Positions 1 through 7,734 of a stretch of DNA of 7,734 bases are shown one piece after another. This DNA is from Lachnospiraceae bacterium. GTDB taxonomy: Bacteria > Bacillota_A > Clostridia > Lachnospirales > Lachnospiraceae. The notes below the pieces were generated by a model, which was given only the letters and a program-made list of their open reading frames with translations, was not told where the DNA came from and did no database searches. Location of the stretch: NCBI GenBank assembly GCA_031262285.1, contig JAISHZ010000365.1:1-7734 (forward strand). Direction: 5' to 3'. How positions within the stretch are numbered: the stretch's first letter is position 1; each line of letters begins with the position of its first letter. The translations under genes and the position numbers were made by a program.

Positions 1-75
1 GAACAACGGTCCGATTTATCCAAGAAACAAGCCGATAGGTACTATTTACACATACAGCAGAAAGGTGTAGAATAA
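1..75 (+). CDS. 3' tail of an upstream gene (partial, frame uncertain)
   Basis: Two plus-strand frames stay open from the left edge. One ends at TAG 68-70 with the residues NNGPIYPRNKPIGTIYTYSR then KV, and the other ends at TAA 73-75. The first looks more like a natural protein end. Its GPIYPR...IGTIYTYSR pattern vaguely recalls the last beta strands of S24/S26-type small peptidases, a family I associate with PqqD-like neighbours, but about 22 residues cannot establish this. Either stop lies within 10 bases of the next start codon, so the upstream gene is probably co-transcribed with the PqqD-like gene. Confidence 0.35.
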   Translation, partial: EQRSDLSKKQADRYYLHIQQKGVE

Positions 76-76
76 A

Positions 77-328
77 ATGATTGGCGACGAAAAATTCCAA
101 TTACGTCACGCAGCCGGAATCTACTGGCTCTTAGATATGAGTCAAAGCGGTAAAGAGTACCAAAAACCCATTACAATGAATGAGTCCGGCGCTTTCCTCT
201 GGAAAATGAACCAAGAAAAACGAACACCTGAAGAAATGGTACAAGCCATATGTGAACGGTATCACATTGACGAGGACGAAGCTCTTGAAGATGTAAAAGA
301 CTTCTTGGACAAATGGACGATTCAATAA
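77..328 (+). CDS. PqqD-like family protein (RiPP-recognition-type winged helix)
   Basis: This 83-residue protein has the PqqD-like layout. An N-terminal beta hairpin (about residues 7-21, FQLRHAAGIYWLLD) is followed by the hallmark NESGAFLW (35-42), corresponding to the family's LNxTGxxIW. A helix-turn-helix-like part follows: TPEEMVQAICERY, an acidic linker, then EALEDVKDFLDKW. PqqD-type domains bind leader peptides and present them to radical SAM or other modifying enzymes, and many stand-alone members have no known partner. The protein is slightly short at its C-terminus, lacking the usual hydrophobic last helix turn. AAAGGTG at 61-67 is a modest ribosome binding site about 9-11 bases upstream of the ATG. 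The gap to the next gene is 25 bases, so the two are likely co-transcribed. No precursor peptide or radical SAM enzyme is visible in the window. The family call is firm; the role in a polysaccharide operon is unknown. Confidence 0.85.
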   Translation: MIGDEKFQLRHAAGIYWLLDMSQSGKEYQKPITMNESGAFLWKMNQEKRTPEEMVQAICERYHIDEDEALEDVKDFLDKWTIQ

Positions 329-344
329 AATACGACGATTTATT

Positions 345-348
345 GAGG
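345..348 (+). promoter_or_regulatory. Ribosome binding site of the SDR-PelD-like gene
   Basis: GAGG lies 5 bases before the ATG at 354 (GAGGAAAATATG). A second ATG at 358 is in another frame, so this site together with the Rossmann-like N-terminus (MDVLVIGG) supports the start at 354. Confidence 0.6.
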
Positions 349-353
349 AAAAT

Positions 354-2534
354 ATGGATGTATTGGTCATCGGCGGTGTGAGCAATCTGGTGAATGGGCT
401 CATAGATAAATTGAACAAAGAGGGGCATAGAATTTATTTGTTAACCGGGAGCCAATTTCAAGTTCCCGGTTATCGTCGTACCTTTGAACGATACAACTTT
501 ACGTATGATACCAATAGTATGGGCGAAATCTTCGACAGCGTAAGACCCGACGTGACTATTTTTATGGGTGGATATGATACGAATTTTACGTGGCTTCATC
601 CAAGATCAGAAGCACTAAAATACATGACAGGGCTGACCAATATGTTGATCTCTTTCTCCTTGCGGCAGTCCGGACGTTTCATTTATTTATCCAGCCAAGA
701 CGTGTTTCAAGAAGCGAGAGACTACAATATCCCCGAAAAGGAACCGGTCGCGCCCAAAGATCTGCGCCCTGTGAGCCTCTCCCACGGAGAACGCTTGTGT
801 ATGGATTATTCCACCGTGTATGGACTAGACACGGTGGTTCTACGCTTGGATCATGTCTATGATATTCCGAAAAAAAGGCATCAAGTAGCCAATATTTGTT
901 CCTTTATGTGTCTGGAAGCTTTGGAAAATCACAAACTGGTCGCCGACGACCATAAAATCTTCTCTCTTCTCTATCTTTCGGATGCTGTCGAGTTTATCTA
1001 TCGCTTGGTGGCGTGCAAAGAACACAAAAGCAACCTTTACCATGTGTCTGCTTCCTCACCGATTAGTGAATTGCAAATGGCCAAATGGATTCAAGAAGTC
1101 ATGGGTAAGGAACTCACCGTCATCGAGCAGACACTAAGTGGTGAACGAAGGTTGATCCTCTCGAATGTCAATTTTGATCGGGAATTTCGGGTGCGAATCT
1201 TTCACAAGCCCGAGGATATGGTGAAGCGCGTCGCGACACAGATGGTGGAGCACAAAGTAGATTTTTTGGCGAACGGCACCGCGAAAGTGAGCAAAATCAA
1301 GCATATTTGGCAAGCGATGAAGCATTTGTTTTTGATTTCGCTCCCTTTTGTGGAGAATCTGTTGTGTTTTATACCCTTCTACGTGTTCAGTGGGCAAGCG
1401 CTACAAAGTGAATACTTTGCTCGGCTGGATTTGTATTTGATCTATGTACTGTTGTTTGCGATCGTCTATGGGCAACACCAAGCGACTTTTTCGGCGCTTT
1501 TGTCCGTGGCAGGGTATTTGACACAACATTCGCAGGATGACTCCGGATTCATGGTGATGTTGGATTATAATACTTATGTGTGGATGGCGCAATTGTTTAT
1601 ATTGGGATTGGCAGTCGGATATTTGAAAGATGAGATTACACTCATTCGAGGGATGGAAGCCAATGAGGTCGATTATTTGACCGAGCAGTTGAGCGATATC
1701 CAAGACATCAACATCAGCAATGTACGACTGAAAAATATATTAGAAACGCAAGTCGTCAATCAAAATGACAGCTTAGGCAAAATTTATGAAATTACATCCG
1801 GACTAGATAAATACGAACCGGAAGAAGTGCTGTTCTATGCTGCGGAAATACTCTCCAGACTAATCGGGAGCCAAGATGTGGCGATTTATTCGGTGGCAAA
1901 CCGTTCTTATGCCAGACTTTTTTCCGCGACGTCCCAAAAGGCACGAATATTGGGCAATTCACTCAACTATACGCAGCTGACTGATGTGTATGATTGCATC
2001 AAAGAGCGGAAAGTATATATCAACAAAAAATTGGACGAACGTTATCCCGAAATGGCAGCATCCATTTTTTCAGAAGATGAAATGCAGTTGATTCTTATGG
2101 TTTGGGGTATCCCTTGGGAACGTATGACACTGGGGCAATCCAATGTGTTGGCTGTTATCGGTTATTTGATCCAAAACGCCGTAGTTCGTGCCAATCGTTA
2201 TATGGCGGCGTTGGAAAATCAACGCTATGTGGCGGGAACGCATATCTTGGAAGCACAAGCTTTTTCTTCTTTGGTTCGCGCTTATATGGGAGCACGTAGA
2301 AAGAACTTGACGGAATGCGCCATCTTAGGGATTGAAGTGGAAGCTTCCATGCAGGAGCAAGCGGGAGCAAAATTGGCGAAATTATTGCGCCAGACCGATT
2401 TTTTGGGCAGACTTGCAGATGGAGGATTATATGCTCTCTTATCCAATACAAATAACGACTCGGCCGGTTTTGTCATGAAGCGGTTTCATGAGGCAGGATA
2501 TCCTTGCTTCTTACAAGAGGAAGTACAGATATAA
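354..2534 (+). CDS. SDR-like / PelD-like fusion: putative c-di-GMP receptor for exopolysaccharide synthesis
   Basis: This 726-residue multidomain membrane protein has these parts in order. (1) Residues 1-310 are an extended-SDR/NAD-epimerase-like Rossmann domain: VLVIGG at the first strand, PDVTIFMGG at 65-73, FIYLSSQDVF at 109-118, and LYLSDAVEFI at 206-215. (2) There are four predicted membrane helices at about 324-345, 359-372, 375-392 and 408-424. (3) A coiled-coil-like stretch covers 425-480. (4) A GAF-like domain spans about 485-612. (5) A short degenerate GGDEF domain spans about 613-726. Parts 2-5 match the architecture of PelD, the inner-membrane cyclic di-GMP receptor that activates Pel polysaccharide synthesis. 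The I-site motif RQTD (679-682) is intact, while the GGDEF position reads ADGGL (688-692). This predicts c-di-GMP binding without diguanylate cyclase activity. In the SDR part the GxxGxxG motif and the catalytic YxxxK appear lost, suggesting a structural or sensing role. The gene sits 25 bases after the PqqD-like gene and before a PelE-like gene. Domain assignment is by eye. Confidence 0.8.
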   Translation: MDVLVIGGVSNLVNGLIDKLNKEGHRIYLLTGSQFQVPGYRRTFERYNFTYDTNSMGEIFDSVRPDVTIFMGGYDTNFTWLHPRSEALKYMTGLTNMLISFSLRQSGRFIYLSSQDVFQEARDYNIPEKEPVAPKDLRPVSLSHGERLCMDYSTVYGLDTVVLRLDHVYDIPKKRHQVANICSFMCLEALENHKLVADDHKIFSLLYLSDAVEFIYRLVACKEHKSNLYHVSASSPISELQMAKWIQEVMGKELTVIEQTLSGERRLILSNVNFDREFRVRIFHKPEDMVKRVATQMVEHKVDFLANGTAKVSKIKHIWQAMKHLFLISLPFVENLLCFIPFYVFSGQALQSEYFARLDLYLIYVLLFAIVYGQHQATFSALLSVAGYLTQHSQDDSGFMVMLDYNTYVWMAQLFILGLAVGYLKDEITLIRGMEANEVDYLTEQLSDIQDINISNVRLKNILETQVVNQNDSLGKIYEITSGLDKYEPEEVLFYAAEILSRLIGSQDVAIYSVANRSYARLFSATSQKARILGNSLNYTQLTDVYDCIKERKVYINKKLDERYPEMAASIFSEDEMQLILMVWGIPWERMTLGQSNVLAVIGYLIQNAVVRANRYMAALENQRYVAGTHILEAQAFSSLVRAYMGARRKNLTECAILGIEVEASMQEQAGAKLAKLLRQTDFLGRLADGGLYALLSNTNNDSAGFVMKRFHEAGYPCFLQEEVQI

Positions 2535-2546
2535 CACATCACATAA

Positions 2547-2606
2547 ATCACCATGCGATATAAAACATCACCATGCGATACAAAACATCGATATGCGATT
2601 GGCATT
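2547..2606. repeat. 20-bp tandem direct repeat, two near-perfect units plus a degenerate third
   Basis: Unit 1 (2547-2566) is ATCACCATGCGATATAAAAC and unit 2 (2567-2586) is ATCACCATGCGATACAAAAC, differing by one base. Unit 3 (2587-2606) keeps ATC and ATGCGAT in register, then diverges. The 20-base period is about two helical turns, which would place repeated sites on one face of the DNA. It is not a multiple of three, which argues against coding use. Confidence 0.8.
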
Positions 2607-2635
2607 TGCGACCCTTGTGAATTTACGCAAATGTT
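2601..2635. repeat. Inverted repeat / potential stem-loop
   Basis: CATTTGCG (2603-2610) and CGCAAATG (2626-2633) are perfect 8-base inverted complements around a 15-base loop. Two G-U pairs (GG 2601-2602 with TT 2634-2635) could extend the RNA stem to 10 pairs. No T-run follows. It could be a symmetric protein-binding site or an mRNA structure near the start of the PelE-like gene's leader. Confidence 0.65.
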
Positions 2636-2750
2636 TGAAAGTAAAAATCTCATACAAACCATAAGCAACTAACATCGTCTGTGAATCGTAACAAATGATA
2701 ACCACTTTTTGAAACAGAATACGCGAAGTCTGCAATGGAGTAACCGATAT

Positions 2751-2755
2751 AGGAG
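2751..2755 (+). promoter_or_regulatory. Ribosome binding site of the PelE-like gene
   Basis: AGGAG lies 13 bases before the ATG at 2769, a longer spacing than usual. A second in-frame ATG at 2799 is preceded by AGGA (2791-2794) with only 4 bases of spacing. The start could therefore be either; the first is preferred because of the stronger core. Confidence 0.45.
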
Positions 2756-2768
2756 TTTTTGACATTTT

Positions 2769-3722
2769 ATGACATGGGAGTTTGACAGGCAGGAAACCAT
2801 GATATTGGCAGCGATTGCCATCAATACGATCCTCGGACTCCTATATATGCTATGGGGATGTTTTTTGCTTGGCTTTATCCGAAAAAAACGCAATAGCGAG
2901 AAAACAACCAGAAAGTTCATGCACTTTTTTCGCGCCATGATCATCATCGCCAGTCCCATTGTGGGGATCTCATTTTTTGGCTTTGGATATCTCTGGCAAA
3001 AGATCTTCTTCCGTAGAGATGTAGATTTAACTGCCGTCATTTTTAGCAAAGAGCATGTGGAAACACAGATGAAAGCTGACGAAGAACGAGGGCGCAACTT
3101 AGCGCCGGTAGAAGAAGCCTTAGCGGTCAGTGATAAAGATAGCTTGAGAATGTTAATGATGAATGTGATTCGAGGAGATATCCGCAAATCTCTGGCAGCG
3201 ATTTCGCTTGCGTTAAACAGTGAAGATTCCGAAACGGCTCATTATGCTGCCAGTGTCCTACGGGATGAACTCAACGGCTTTCGTATGCAGGTACAAAGGA
3301 TCATCAAGGAGATCAAAAACGAAGAAGAGAATCAAGTAAGCTTGTGCATCATGTTACTGGAATATATGAATGGCGTATTGGCGCAAGGAGTTTTTAGCGA
3401 ACTCGAGCAACTGACTTTTGTACGTCAAATGGAAGAAGTCATACAAATTTTGTATGACAAAGACAGTACGAAAGTAGAATCCAGACATTTTGAATGGATC
3501 TGTATGCGTCTGATGGAATGCAAAGAATTTGAATTGATGCAAAAATGGTGTGATCGACAGATGAGAGAATTTCCCGATGAATTACCATCTTACGTGTGTA
3601 TGCTCAAATTGTATTATTCGATTATGAATCGAGAGCGGTTCTTTGAAGTGTTGAACAACCTAAAAAAATCCAATATTGTTTTGGATAATGCGACGTTGGA
3701 TTTGATGCGATTGTTTGGATAG
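2769..3722 (+). CDS. PelE-like membrane protein with helical-repeat cytoplasmic region
   Basis: This is a 317-residue protein. Two predicted membrane helices lie near the N-terminus (about 11-37 and 54-75), separated by a basic loop (RKKRNSEKTTRK). A mostly alpha-helical soluble part runs from about 85 to 317. The conserved-looking core is APVEEALAVSDKDSLRMLM (112-130), a GD-containing turn at 136-137, and SETAHYAASVLRDEL (154-168). This pattern, two membrane helices then a 'PLEEAL..ND' segment and an 'AHYAAS' segment, is what I associate with PelE, the TPR-containing partner of PelD in Pel synthesis. Later helices (about 205-315) resemble degenerate TPR-like repeats, for example the segment from EFELMQKWCDRQMREFPDEL onward. 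Its place directly after the PelD-like gene supports the assignment. The start may instead be Met11 at 2799. Family call is moderate; a generic TPR scaffold is the alternative. Confidence 0.62.
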   Translation: MTWEFDRQETMILAAIAINTILGLLYMLWGCFLLGFIRKKRNSEKTTRKFMHFFRAMIIIASPIVGISFFGFGYLWQKIFFRRDVDLTAVIFSKEHVETQMKADEERGRNLAPVEEALAVSDKDSLRMLMMNVIRGDIRKSLAAISLALNSEDSETAHYAASVLRDELNGFRMQVQRIIKEIKNEEENQVSLCIMLLEYMNGVLAQGVFSELEQLTFVRQMEEVIQILYDKDSTKVESRHFEWICMRLMECKEFELMQKWCDRQMREFPDELPSYVCMLKLYYSIMNRERFFEVLNNLKKSNIVLDNATLDLMRLFG

Positions 3723-3786
3723 AGATTACGGTTCGCGTTCTGTCACGATGAGCGTCGAAGGCGTGAATCGGAACGGATATAGAGAA

Positions 3787-3792
3787 AGGAGG
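3787..3792 (+). promoter_or_regulatory. Strong Shine-Dalgarno that fixes the start at 3801
   Basis: AGGAGG, within AAAGGAGGTG, lies 8 bases before the ATG at 3801. A GTG codon at 3792 in the same frame overlaps the Shine-Dalgarno itself and so is unlikely to be the initiator. The ATG at 3801 is chosen, giving 833 rather than 836 residues. Confidence 0.85.
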
Positions 3793-3800
3793 TGGTACTC

Positions 3801-6302
3801 ATGCCAATGACCGTTTATACGGTGCTGCAATTTCTTTGGGCTATGACTGCCTACCTCTTTGTCACGTGCTTCCTTCCTTCTATTGCGTTATCGTCGCAAC
3901 TTTCGCGCTTTCGGCTTTCCTTACGCTTTCTATTTTCCTTTACATTTGGGAATTTTTATTTGATTAATTTGGTCTATCTATTGGAGATCTTTCGGTTCTC
4001 CAATCAAATAACGCTCGTTTTCTTTACGATTCTCCCTGTCTTGCTGTTATGTTTAAAAAGGCGGCAAATGACGCTCACAGGAGCATTTAGTAGGTTTTTT
4101 ACCTTTTTGCTAAGGCTTTTCTCCGGGCAATATGGCTTTCGACTGCTTTTACTGCGGACGCGGCAGGTGATTGGGAAAGTTCTGAAACGTGCAGTTCGAT
4201 GGATTTCACACCAAATCAAGACGCATCCGATGGATGTACCGATGTTACTTGGAGTAGCGGCTGTTTTGACATGGTTTTTTGGATACAATCTAGTCACATA
4301 TTTTGGCTATGGCGCGTCCGACATCGTGGTTCACAATCTTTGGGTGAATGGGATGGATTGGGTTTGGGCATGGCCATGGGAAGAGGCATTTGCTACCAGA
4401 AATAATATCTTTAATGGTGGTGTGTACCCTTTTGGAATGCACAATATCATTTATTATCTGCATGATGTTTTTTGGATGGATACTTACGTACTGTTTCGGG
4501 TGTTTTGGCTGGTGCAAACGATTATGGTATTCCTTGTGACACTGGCCGTCATGCGCGTATGGTGCAAAACCAAGTACGCTCCTTACTTGGGATTGATTCT
4601 TTATCTAATCGCTCCTTTATATCCGTCCAATTACTATCGGTATTACAGTACATTGCCACAAGAATTTGGAATGCTTTTCATCTTGCCGCCTGCATGCTTT
4701 TTTACTGAATTTTTACGCAGAAGAAAGGAAGAGCTGAGAACGCTCACTTGTCAAATTAAAGAGGAACTCGGTGCCTTACAGGAATCGGATCCCAAAGCTA
4801 GAAAGGGTCGAAAGAAGCGTGAACAAAAAGCAATTCGCCGAGAGATCAAACGTAGGAAAAGAGAACGCATCCCCAAGCTATTCAAGAAATCTCCACGGGG
4901 GATCTTTCACTGGCTCCTCCTTCGGTTGAAACAATCGAGGACATTTTTTTCAATCGATCCGCCAAATCGAGAGGATGGGGAATCAAATTGGCATTTATTT
5001 GCTATGATTATGGCGCTTAGTCTTAGTTTTACCACACACTTTTACAATTTCTTTATAGCGGCGTTTTATTGTATTGCGGTGGCGATTGCATTCTTTTTTC
5101 GCTTATTTCGAAGAGGGTATTTTGGGAGAGTGGTGATCGCCGCGCTCCTTAGTATCGTCATCAGTATACTCCCGTTAGCCATGGCAGTCGCAGGCGGGAA
5201 ACCGCTTCAATATTCTCTTAGGTGGGGGATGTCCTTCATCACAGGGACCAATGACCAGTCAGACGAACCAGAAGAACTCGAGGAAACAGAACCCGCACAA
5301 GAAGGGAATTCTTCGGAAGAAGTAGAGTATGAGGAACAAACGATTGTAAGATCGACGCTTTCTGCCAGACTTTTCTCTATCTTGGAGGGAATTGTCAATG
5401 GAACACAGTTTATCATCGATCAAAATATCTTCAATACGCACCAGAAAATATTGATACCCGCGTGTTATCTCGCGATTGCGCTTTTGTTGATTTTGGGTCT
5501 GTTGTTTTGGTTGATTCGAAGGATTGAGTATGGTGCTATGATCTTGAGTGGTGCGATATCCCAGTTGTTATTGATCTTTTTAATGATCAGCGGATTACTG
5601 GGTTTTCCCGAATTGATGGGGACAGAACGGTCAAGGGTTTATTTTTGTTATGGACTTGTGGTATTATGGGGTTTGAGTGCGGATGGCGTGTTGTATCTGT
5701 TGTTGGGATTTCGCAAGATCAAGTGGTTGATGAACACCCTTTCGCTCATATGCTTGCTTGGGATTACCGGTTTTTTTTATCGGGAGGGAATGCTCAGATG
5801 GCAGTACTTGACAGGCAACATCTGGCAAAGTAATGGTGCGGTCACGTGCCTCACCAATATTATTCATGATAATGAAGATCATACATGGACGATCTGTTCG
5901 GCAAATGACGAGACACAGATGGTACACGGACACGGTTACCATGTAGAGACGATTGATTTTTTATATGAGATGGAAGAAGATGGCGAAAGCAAACCGATTC
6001 CTACGCCGCTTATTTATTTCTTTGTGGAAAAGATCCCTTTGAATTATAATGTGTTGTATGAAGGGAGCGGACAGAAAGTCGCGCGAGTTGGTGCGGATCA
6101 AGAACTACCGGAGAATAATGGGCTTGCTCCCTACCAAGGGGAGAATCGTTGGATCGTAATGTCCAAAATGTACTATTGGGCGGAAGAGTTTCGGCGTAGA
6201 TTTCCGGATGTATTTACCGTATACTACGAAACAGATAATTTTATTTGTTATGCTGCTCGGCAAAATATCGCCAGATTGTATAACTTCGCTATCGATTATT
6301 GA
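3801..6302 (+). CDS. Large multi-pass membrane protein, GT-C-glycosyltransferase-like
   Basis: This 833-residue protein has about 12-13 predicted membrane helices and a C-terminal soluble part (about 661-833). After the helix at 146-166, the following loop carries SDIVVHNLW (D174, H178, W181) and then YPFGMH (209-214). An acidic residue with a nearby histidine in the first large outside loop, plus a YPxGxH-type motif, recalls GT-C polyprenyl-phosphate-sugar-dependent glycosyltransferases. A very basic loop (about 306-363, rich in K and R) is probably cytoplasmic. An acidic loop (about 483-513) is probably outside. The C-terminal part contains WTICSANDETQMVHGHGYH (695-713) and IPTPLIYFFVEKIPLNY (733-749). 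The gene lies between a PelE-like and a DUF2194-like gene, 78 bases after the former and 9 before the latter. A role in making or decorating the polysaccharide is inferred. The exact family is not recognised, and a non-enzymatic polysaccharide-complex component is possible. Confidence 0.5.
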   Translation: MPMTVYTVLQFLWAMTAYLFVTCFLPSIALSSQLSRFRLSLRFLFSFTFGNFYLINLVYLLEIFRFSNQITLVFFTILPVLLLCLKRRQMTLTGAFSRFFTFLLRLFSGQYGFRLLLLRTRQVIGKVLKRAVRWISHQIKTHPMDVPMLLGVAAVLTWFFGYNLVTYFGYGASDIVVHNLWVNGMDWVWAWPWEEAFATRNNIFNGGVYPFGMHNIIYYLHDVFWMDTYVLFRVFWLVQTIMVFLVTLAVMRVWCKTKYAPYLGLILYLIAPLYPSNYYRYYSTLPQEFGMLFILPPACFFTEFLRRRKEELRTLTCQIKEELGALQESDPKARKGRKKREQKAIRREIKRRKRERIPKLFKKSPRGIFHWLLLRLKQSRTFFSIDPPNREDGESNWHLFAMIMALSLSFTTHFYNFFIAAFYCIAVAIAFFFRLFRRGYFGRVVIAALLSIVISILPLAMAVAGGKPLQYSLRWGMSFITGTNDQSDEPEELEETEPAQEGNSSEEVEYEEQTIVRSTLSARLFSILEGIVNGTQFIIDQNIFNTHQKILIPACYLAIALLLILGLLFWLIRRIEYGAMILSGAISQLLLIFLMISGLLGFPELMGTERSRVYFCYGLVVLWGLSADGVLYLLLGFRKIKWLMNTLSLICLLGITGFFYREGMLRWQYLTGNIWQSNGAVTCLTNIIHDNEDHTWTICSANDETQMVHGHGYHVETIDFLYEMEEDGESKPIPTPLIYFFVEKIPLNYNVLYEGSGQKVARVGADQELPENNGLAPYQGENRWIVMSKMYYWAEEFRRRFPDVFTVYYETDNFICYAARQNIARLYNFAIDY

Positions 6303-6304
6303 GG
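6301..6304 (+). promoter_or_regulatory. Ribosome binding site of the DUF2194-like gene, overlapping the preceding stop
   Basis: GAGG overlaps the TGA stop at 6300-6302 and lies 7 bases before the ATG at 6312. This suggests translational coupling with the preceding membrane protein. Confidence 0.65.
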
Positions 6305-6311
6305 TTTGAGG

Positions 6312-7734
6312 ATGATCAACCGCAGGAATTTCATGGTTATTACTGTCATGATGTTGGTGCTACTCTTTCTATTCCAATTTTCCAGTATTATGCGGGAAGT
6401 GGGGAACGAGTATGGAACCAACCATTATGATGTGCAAACCAGAAGCCCCTATACCGCAAGTGAGAGTGTGACGAAACCCGGATGGACGCCGCAAGGAGTT
6501 TCCGAAGAGGTGGGCAGTGAGCGTTTACAAGGGCAAGAATATGCTGTTTTTTGCGGAGATTTGGATAATACAGCGATCGGTCATTCGGCGCGTGAATGGG
6601 CAGTCTATGCGAAGATCCCTATCATAGAAGTGACGTCTCTTCCTGTTTTTGCAGAGCAAGACCCACTTCCTTATGTGATTTTGATAGATTCCTTTGCAGT
6701 TGATTTTGATACAGATATAGAAACATTGGAACAATATACGCAACTAGGGATTCATTTACTATTTTGTAATATTCCTTCTTATGACGAGATTGTTACCAAT
6801 CGTTCTTTACGGGAGTTGTTTGGAATCAGAACTTGTCTTTCGGAAAGCATCACCCTGGTGGGGCACCGTTTGTTTGGCGGCTTCTTATTGGGGGGAGAGG
6901 TTTATTATGAGACACAAGATCCGGAGGAATGGGAGGAACGACAGGATCTGGATGTTGAAGTACCGTGGTATCGTATGGGTAGTGGTGTAGAAACGTATAT
7001 GGTTGGGATGGTCGAAGAATCTCTCTTACGACGCGCCGCGAATGGAGCAACCGATACCACAGTGACGAACGGCTACTTGCCCGCCATCTTATGGATGCAC
7101 AGTATCAAGGATTCGCGTGTTTTTTGCGTAAACGCGGACTTTTTGGAGACAGCAGCAGGACCCGGTATCATCAAAGCGATGATCACACAGACGAAATCTT
7201 ATGATCTATATCCGGTGGTAAACGCGCAAAATACTGTGATCGTGAATTTCCCTTGGCTTGCGAATGAAGAAAACACGATTTTACGACAAATTTATGGTCG
7301 TTCACAATCAGAAGTATTAAGAGATATCATTTGGCCGGGGATGATGGCCATCGCTGAAAATAACGGTGTGATTCCGACGTGTCTCTTGATGACGCAGTTT
7401 CATTATGCGGAACACATCACACCAAACGGAGAAGACTTTATCTCCTATATGAAACTTTTGGGAGAGGAACAGGCGGAAACGGGCAGATCGCTTTCCCGCG
7501 AAAGCGCTTACAAGGCAGCGGACAAGATCATCAGAGACGAGGCGTTTTTGGAGGAGTGGCTTCCGGATTATGCATTTCTTTCTTTTGCACCGGGTAATAT
7601 GACTGAGCAAGACTGGCAGGAGATCCAAAGATGGGGGTTGCTTGCGGATGTGCGGACATTGGTATTGCCTCCCGGTGGAACGCAGAAGATCATCGCTTAC
7701 GACTCTGAAACCATTACCGCGCAAAGTTCCATCA
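6312..7734 (+). CDS. DUF2194-like membrane-anchored extracytoplasmic protein (partial, 3' end missing)
   Basis: The frame starting at ATG 6312 is open to the right edge, giving at least 474 residues with no stop. One hydrophobic N-terminal segment (about 8-26, after MINRR) acts as a signal anchor and puts the rest outside the cell. Residues about 75-200 look like an alpha/beta GATase-like domain: EYAVFCGDLDNTAIG at 76-90, YVILIDSF at 121-128, and LFGGFLLGGEVYY at 187-199. RVFCVNADFLETAAGPGII (269-287) fits the end of such a domain. From about residue 297, PVVNAQNTVIVNFPW and then PTCLLMTQFHY (355-365) look like the start of a polysaccharide-deacetylase or glycosidase-type barrel. This layout matches my recollection of DUF2194 proteins, which occur near pelF/pelG-type genes in clostridia. 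In a Pel-like locus it could substitute for the deacetylase part of PelA. The catalytic region would be mostly beyond the edge, so activity cannot be judged. Family call is moderate and function is inferred. Confidence 0.65.
   Translation, partial: MINRRNFMVITVMMLVLLFLFQFSSIMREVGNEYGTNHYDVQTRSPYTASESVTKPGWTPQGVSEEVGSERLQGQEYAVFCGDLDNTAIGHSAREWAVYAKIPIIEVTSLPVFAEQDPLPYVILIDSFAVDFDTDIETLEQYTQLGIHLLFCNIPSYDEIVTNRSLRELFGIRTCLSESITLVGHRLFGGFLLGGEVYYETQDPEEWEERQDLDVEVPWYRMGSGVETYMVGMVEESLLRRAANGATDTTVTNGYLPAILWMHSIKDSRVFCVNADFLETAAGPGIIKAMITQTKSYDLYPVVNAQNTVIVNFPWLANEENTILRQIYGRSQSEVLRDIIWPGMMAIAENNGVIPTCLLMTQFHYAEHITPNGEDFISYMKLLGEEQAETGRSLSRESAYKAADKIIRDEAFLEEWLPDYAFLSFAPGNMTEQDWQEIQRWGLLADVRTLVLPPGGTQKIIAYDSETITAQSSI

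Follow-up and report, generated by a model that had tools for sequence, protein, structure and literature searches.

We analyzed a stretch of 7,734 nucleotides from a Lachnospiraceae bacterium (assembly GCA_031262285.1, contig JAISHZ010000365.1, positions 1-7,734, forward strand; hereafter the window), which raises the question of whether a protein recognized by family models for its sugar-epimerase-like part could be a c-di-GMP receptor. A first-pass annotation had proposed a PelD-like receptor that retains the c-di-GMP inhibitory site (I-site) and has lost the GGDEF motif of cyclases. Operons of the pelDEA-DAFG type are described in bacilli, clostridia, streptococci and actinobacteria, with mention of Roseburia loci, in Whitfield et al. 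2020 (PMC7112168), where the receptor idea is already published for proteins of this kind. The window contained the following features:

77 to 328, forward strand: gene for a PqqD-like small protein (PF05402, E 6.2e-15), directly upstream of pelD
354 to 2534, forward strand: pelD, 726 aa, with SDR, membrane, GAF and degenerate GGDEF regions (from Pfam, structure prediction and Foldseek)
354 to 1130, forward strand: N-terminal degenerate SDR (epimerase-like) domain of PelD, approximately residues 1-259 (PF04321, E 2.7e-11; PF01370, E 8.5e-11)
1305 to 1628, forward strand: membrane region of PelD, approximately residues 318-425, its outer limits and further segments set by eye
1764 to 2216, forward strand: GAF domain, approximately residues 471-621
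2220 to 2531, forward strand: degenerate GGDEF domain, residues 623-726
2388 to 2399, forward strand: putative I-site RxxD, R679-Q-T-D682, on the loop preceding a hairpin
2415 to 2429, forward strand: position of the GGDEF motif, reading ADGGL (residues 688-692)
2481 to 2483, forward strand: R710, putative third I-site residue (R679+31)
2769 to 3722, forward strand: pelE-like gene, 317 aa, named by position, with two hydropathic segments near the N-terminus
3801 to 6302, forward strand: gene for a large membrane protein of approximately 833 aa with nine hydropathic segments, its ATG at 3801 following aaaggagg
6312 to 7734, forward strand: DUF2194 gene at the pelA-DA position (PF09960, E 1.2e-12), cut by the window end

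Only the SDR part of the window PelD exceeded a Pfam cut-off, and the GGDEF part remained below cut-off in both Pfam and NCBIfam (PF00990, E 0.045). PF16963 (PelD_GGDEF) gave no match to the domain at E up to 10 and was absent among the 25 of 27 families listed for 54 members; across 299 genomes of the phylum it matched in four and exceeded its cut-off in one. PF16963 is a detection model rather than a biological criterion, and according to PMC7112168 it likewise fails on Bacillus cereus PelD, whose GGDEF domain is missed by HMMER. PelD of this form is expected to have four transmembrane helices ahead of the GAF domain; a simple hydropathy scan placed two segments of the membrane region above threshold (residues 326-344 and 355-373).

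Active SDR epimerases carry the catalytic motif YxxxK. This motif was absent from the window PelD, where the catalytic Tyr and Lys columns (138 and 142, in a register taken from the 3aw9 alignment) read R138 and L142. Neither Tyr nor Lys occurred at these columns in any of 80 related loci (0/80 and 0/80), and columns 139 and 143 likewise had none. Clostridial PelD is described in PMC7112168 with an altered, degenerate N-terminal epimerase (SDR) domain; the window protein shared an N-terminal degenerate SDR with the clostridial and actinobacterial PelD of that paper, in which the clostridial SDR is considered probably inactive. A review's four-class PelD scheme, known to us as cited in PMC12345266, places streptococcal PelD, with a degenerate SDR and no GGDEF domain, in class IV, and we infer that the window PelD belongs to the class in which a degenerate SDR is combined with a degenerate GGDEF.

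Translation of the open reading frame placed RQTD at residues 679-682 and ADGGL at residues 688-692 (2388-2429), separated by exactly five residues (FLGRL), just as the first-pass annotation had read them. RxxD alone was discarded as evidence, as its two occurrences in the window protein (RQTD at 679 and RLAD at 686) equal the chance expectation of about 2.0 from composition; the motif is significant because R679 and D682 are conserved, not because it is present. We evaluated conservation in two sets of close relatives, which may overlap: 80 loci kept from 103 relatives confirmed in a scan of genome contigs (best-segment identity 47-60%; mainly Lachnospiraceae, Roseburia, Acetatifactor and Eubacterium MAGs by record title), and the best 120 of 2003 protein matches. 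R679 and D682 were each found in 80/80 loci, and in 119/120 and 120/120, respectively, of the best 120 proteins, whereas R686 of the second RxxD was not conserved. R710, which the first-pass annotation had not mentioned, was Arg in 78/80 loci and in 120/120 of the best 120 proteins; the two remaining loci had one Lys and one gap, the latter taken to be a locus cut at residue 684 (L049). Mean top-residue frequency across residues 623-726 was 0.59 in the 80 loci, and the only charged residues of this domain kept in more than 90% of them were R624, R679, D682 (80/80) and R710 (78/80). Equally invariant residues occurred elsewhere in the domain (e.g., R624, F637, A647 and L652).

At the position of the lost motif, GG[DE]EF occurred in none of 201 proteins, the window's included, so that the window protein lacked the GG(D/E)EF of an active diguanylate cyclase. 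Within ADGGL, G690 was kept in 75/80 loci and L692 in 64/80, and the remaining positions varied. The first-strand metal-site motif of GGDEF cyclases was likewise not seen in the window sequence. A sample of 146 genomes from the order of one host (G004) gave profile matches in 13 genomes. Ten of these, among them the already sampled G004 and others that may overlap the 80 loci, encoded 11 full-length PelD ORFs (weakest E 1.7e-34), all with R-D-R at the triad. Short ORFs in three genomes (L093-L095, 221-224 aa) matched the GGDEF part only and were taken as not PelD. They kept RxTD with R-D-K in place of R-D-R, their host genomes had no PelG match, and they are possibly another small c-di-GMP receptor family.

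Characterized PelD proteins give these residues a function. B. cereus PelD binds c-di-GMP with a KD of 103 nM, and binding is lost in R363A, D366A and R395A (PMC7112168); in Pseudomonas aeruginosa PelD the residues are R367, D370 and R402 (Lee et al. 2007, PMC2170427). Each triad is reported in these two papers to be essential for binding as well as for biofilm or pellicle formation, and both proteins keep RxxD while GGDEF is lost, as the first-pass annotation had said of known PelD proteins. PelD of B. cereus ATCC 10987 resembles the window protein in a degenerate GGDEF that keeps RxxD and a further Arg, in its GAF domain, its membrane region and, as far as the window reaches, its pelDEA-DAFG operon, but has its second Arg at +32 rather than +31 and is described in PMC12345266 as lacking an SDR domain. 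P. aeruginosa PelD (4etz, 4euv, 4dn0, 4dmz) similarly combines a GAF domain with a degenerate GGDEF carrying R367/D370/R402; unlike the window protein, with which it shares 13-15% identity, it has the second Arg at +35 and no SDR domain. In contrast to GGDEF cyclases with an I-site (PleD 2v0n, 3ign, WspR 3i5c), the window protein has lost the GGDEF motif.

In the predicted structure, R679 and D682 were situated on the expected I-site loop, between a helix and a beta hairpin by secondary structure and profile alignment, and R710 on the following helix; a model with R679 and D682 off this loop had been named as grounds for abandoning the receptor idea. Profile alignment placed the triad without gaps on 3ign (E 1.2e-4), which is titled as a c-di-GMP complex, and, gap-free but weakly, on 6zxm (E 0.025) and 7e6g (E 0.035); in each of the three GGDEF chains of known structure with an alignment listed, the R710 column was Arg. 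Foldseek searches with the GAF and GGDEF part returned P. aeruginosa PelD at all of ranks 1-7 (E 1.1e-7 to 1.3e-6; identity 13-15%), including 4euv and 4dn0, which are PelD with c-di-GMP. Whole-model TM to PelD was just 0.33-0.39, with an rmsd of 15-17, and the two-domain arrangement of PelD was therefore not reproduced. Taken singly, the GAF and GGDEF domains each aligned well, though PelD did not outrank other domains of either family: VIA on the GAF part placed 4dn0 at rank 26, under unrelated GAF domains, and Foldseek on the GGDEF part alone was led by active cyclases, with PelD at ranks 42 and 47. VIA-align of the two-domain model gave mainly GAF matches, so the GGDEF part was predicted alone, and PelD was not among the 50 VIA entries listed for it. 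A sequence profile search at E up to 5 or 10 did not find P. aeruginosa PelD.

The gene order of the window looks like that of a pel operon, with pelE assigned by position and the DUF2194 gene as a putative counterpart of pelA-DA, whose B. cereus product is a de-N-acetylase (PMC13254593). A pelE-like gene was located directly 3' of pelD in 78/80 loci, and the protein of the window matched no family above cut-off in Pfam or NCBIfam. Relatives of the DUF2194 gene were found in 67/80 loci and of the PqqD-like gene in 43/80, many of the 80 loci being shortened at contig ends; among relatives with over 400 bp of the locus ahead of the pelD frame, the PqqD-like gene was directly upstream of it in 43/74. 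The window ends before pelF and pelG would be reached; PelF (PF11997 and GT4) and PelG (PF16933) come next in the operon in the two relatives examined (L001 and L004). PelG was situated at most 9 kb from PelD on the same contig in eight of the nine PelD genomes other than G004, and G130, a PelD genome, had no PelG match. In one genome (G073), PelD (L092 and L096) and PelG are each encoded twice, spread over two contigs, and this genome probably carries two pel loci.

Less usual in the window locus were the PqqD-like gene upstream of pelD and the large membrane gene after pelE, by which it differs from the B. cereus type; the latter gene separates pelE from DUF2194. A literature search did not find PelD and PqqD together among the matches listed. 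The large membrane protein, searched from residue 4, had no match in Pfam, NCBIfam or the PDB (E up to 0.1 for the PDB), and many of its invariant columns lay in the C-terminal quarter. Relatives of it were present in 61/80 loci, directly after pelE in 52 and elsewhere in nine, and DUF2194 directly followed pelE in 11 loci without the membrane gene; the gene is an optional part of the pel locus. Positions 1-75 of the window encode 24 residues followed by a stop, the tail of another open frame, which ends 1 bp ahead of the PqqD-like gene and is too short for identification. No Rfam family, c-di-GMP riboswitches included, matched the window or six relatives at the gathering threshold.

Based on sequence, structural modeling and analogy, it is very probable that the window protein is PelD, encoded in a pel locus of clostridial (Lachnospiraceae-like) type, and a putative c-di-GMP receptor without cyclase activity. 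The predicted fold, the I-site triad, the loss of GGDEF and the pel-like locus all support the first-pass proposal of a degenerate-GGDEF, noncyclase PelD-like receptor. The GGDEF-fold domain would not synthesize c-di-GMP but would bind it at the I-site (R679, D682 and R710), and binding may activate a PelDEFG complex to produce a Pel-like product. GGDEF matches occurred in 20/20 relatives' genomes tested and in all 10 genomes of the order sample with full-length PelD (10/146). Co-occurrence with cyclases was nevertheless discarded as support, because GGDEF matches are common in the order (131/146 genomes) and their presence in 20/20 hosts is nondiscriminating.

The triad might instead persist because it serves folding or the contact to PelE or PelF, with c-di-GMP sensing lost and regulation passed to the SDR domain or another input. 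The invariance of R624, F637, A647 and L652 beyond the triad would fit such a constraint, as would streptococcal PelD, which functions without a GGDEF domain according to PMC12345266 and must be regulated otherwise. However, the triad supplies three of the four charged residues kept in more than 90% of loci, binding in P. aeruginosa and B. cereus depends on the same three (PMC2170427, PMC7112168), and R679 and D682 were present in PelD from each of the 20 genomes tested for GGDEF proteins, all of which encode such proteins; we regard this explanation as improbable. Binding of a different nucleotide (GTP, c-di-AMP or similar) in the GGDEF cleft or I-site is conceivable given how freely the motif positions vary, yet this variation, in which only G690 and to a lesser extent L692 are kept, looks like loss rather than a new pocket. 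P. aeruginosa PelD is moreover reported to bind neither GTP nor cGMP/cAMP (PMC2170427), and of all the explanations weighed here we give this one the least credence.

Its database name would make the protein chiefly a nucleotide-sugar epimerase or reductase, with the C-terminal part as a passive anchor. The SDR part alone stands above a Pfam cut-off, and the names nucleoside-diphosphate-sugar epimerase and NAD(P)-dependent oxidoreductase occur among the listed relatives, but the catalytic Tyr and Lys columns hold neither residue in 80/80 loci and conservation is strong in the C-terminal part (67% mean column identity in 54 sequences), making this very improbable. A wider scheme, which we consider unlikely though the least so of these ideas, is that PelD acts as a multi-input gate, in which the I-site would read c-di-GMP and the dead SDR the supply of nucleotide sugars, while the PqqD-like protein would dock a peptide or partner and the membrane protein add polymer modification or transport.

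As a putative PelD-type receptor, the window protein brings a complete I-site with near-absolute conservation to clostridial pel loci. Current annotation conceals such a receptor, as relatives are named epimerases or oxidoreductases and no family model for the receptor part rises above cut-off. With the I-site complete and conserved, bacteria that carry this locus probably have a biofilm polymer under c-di-GMP control.
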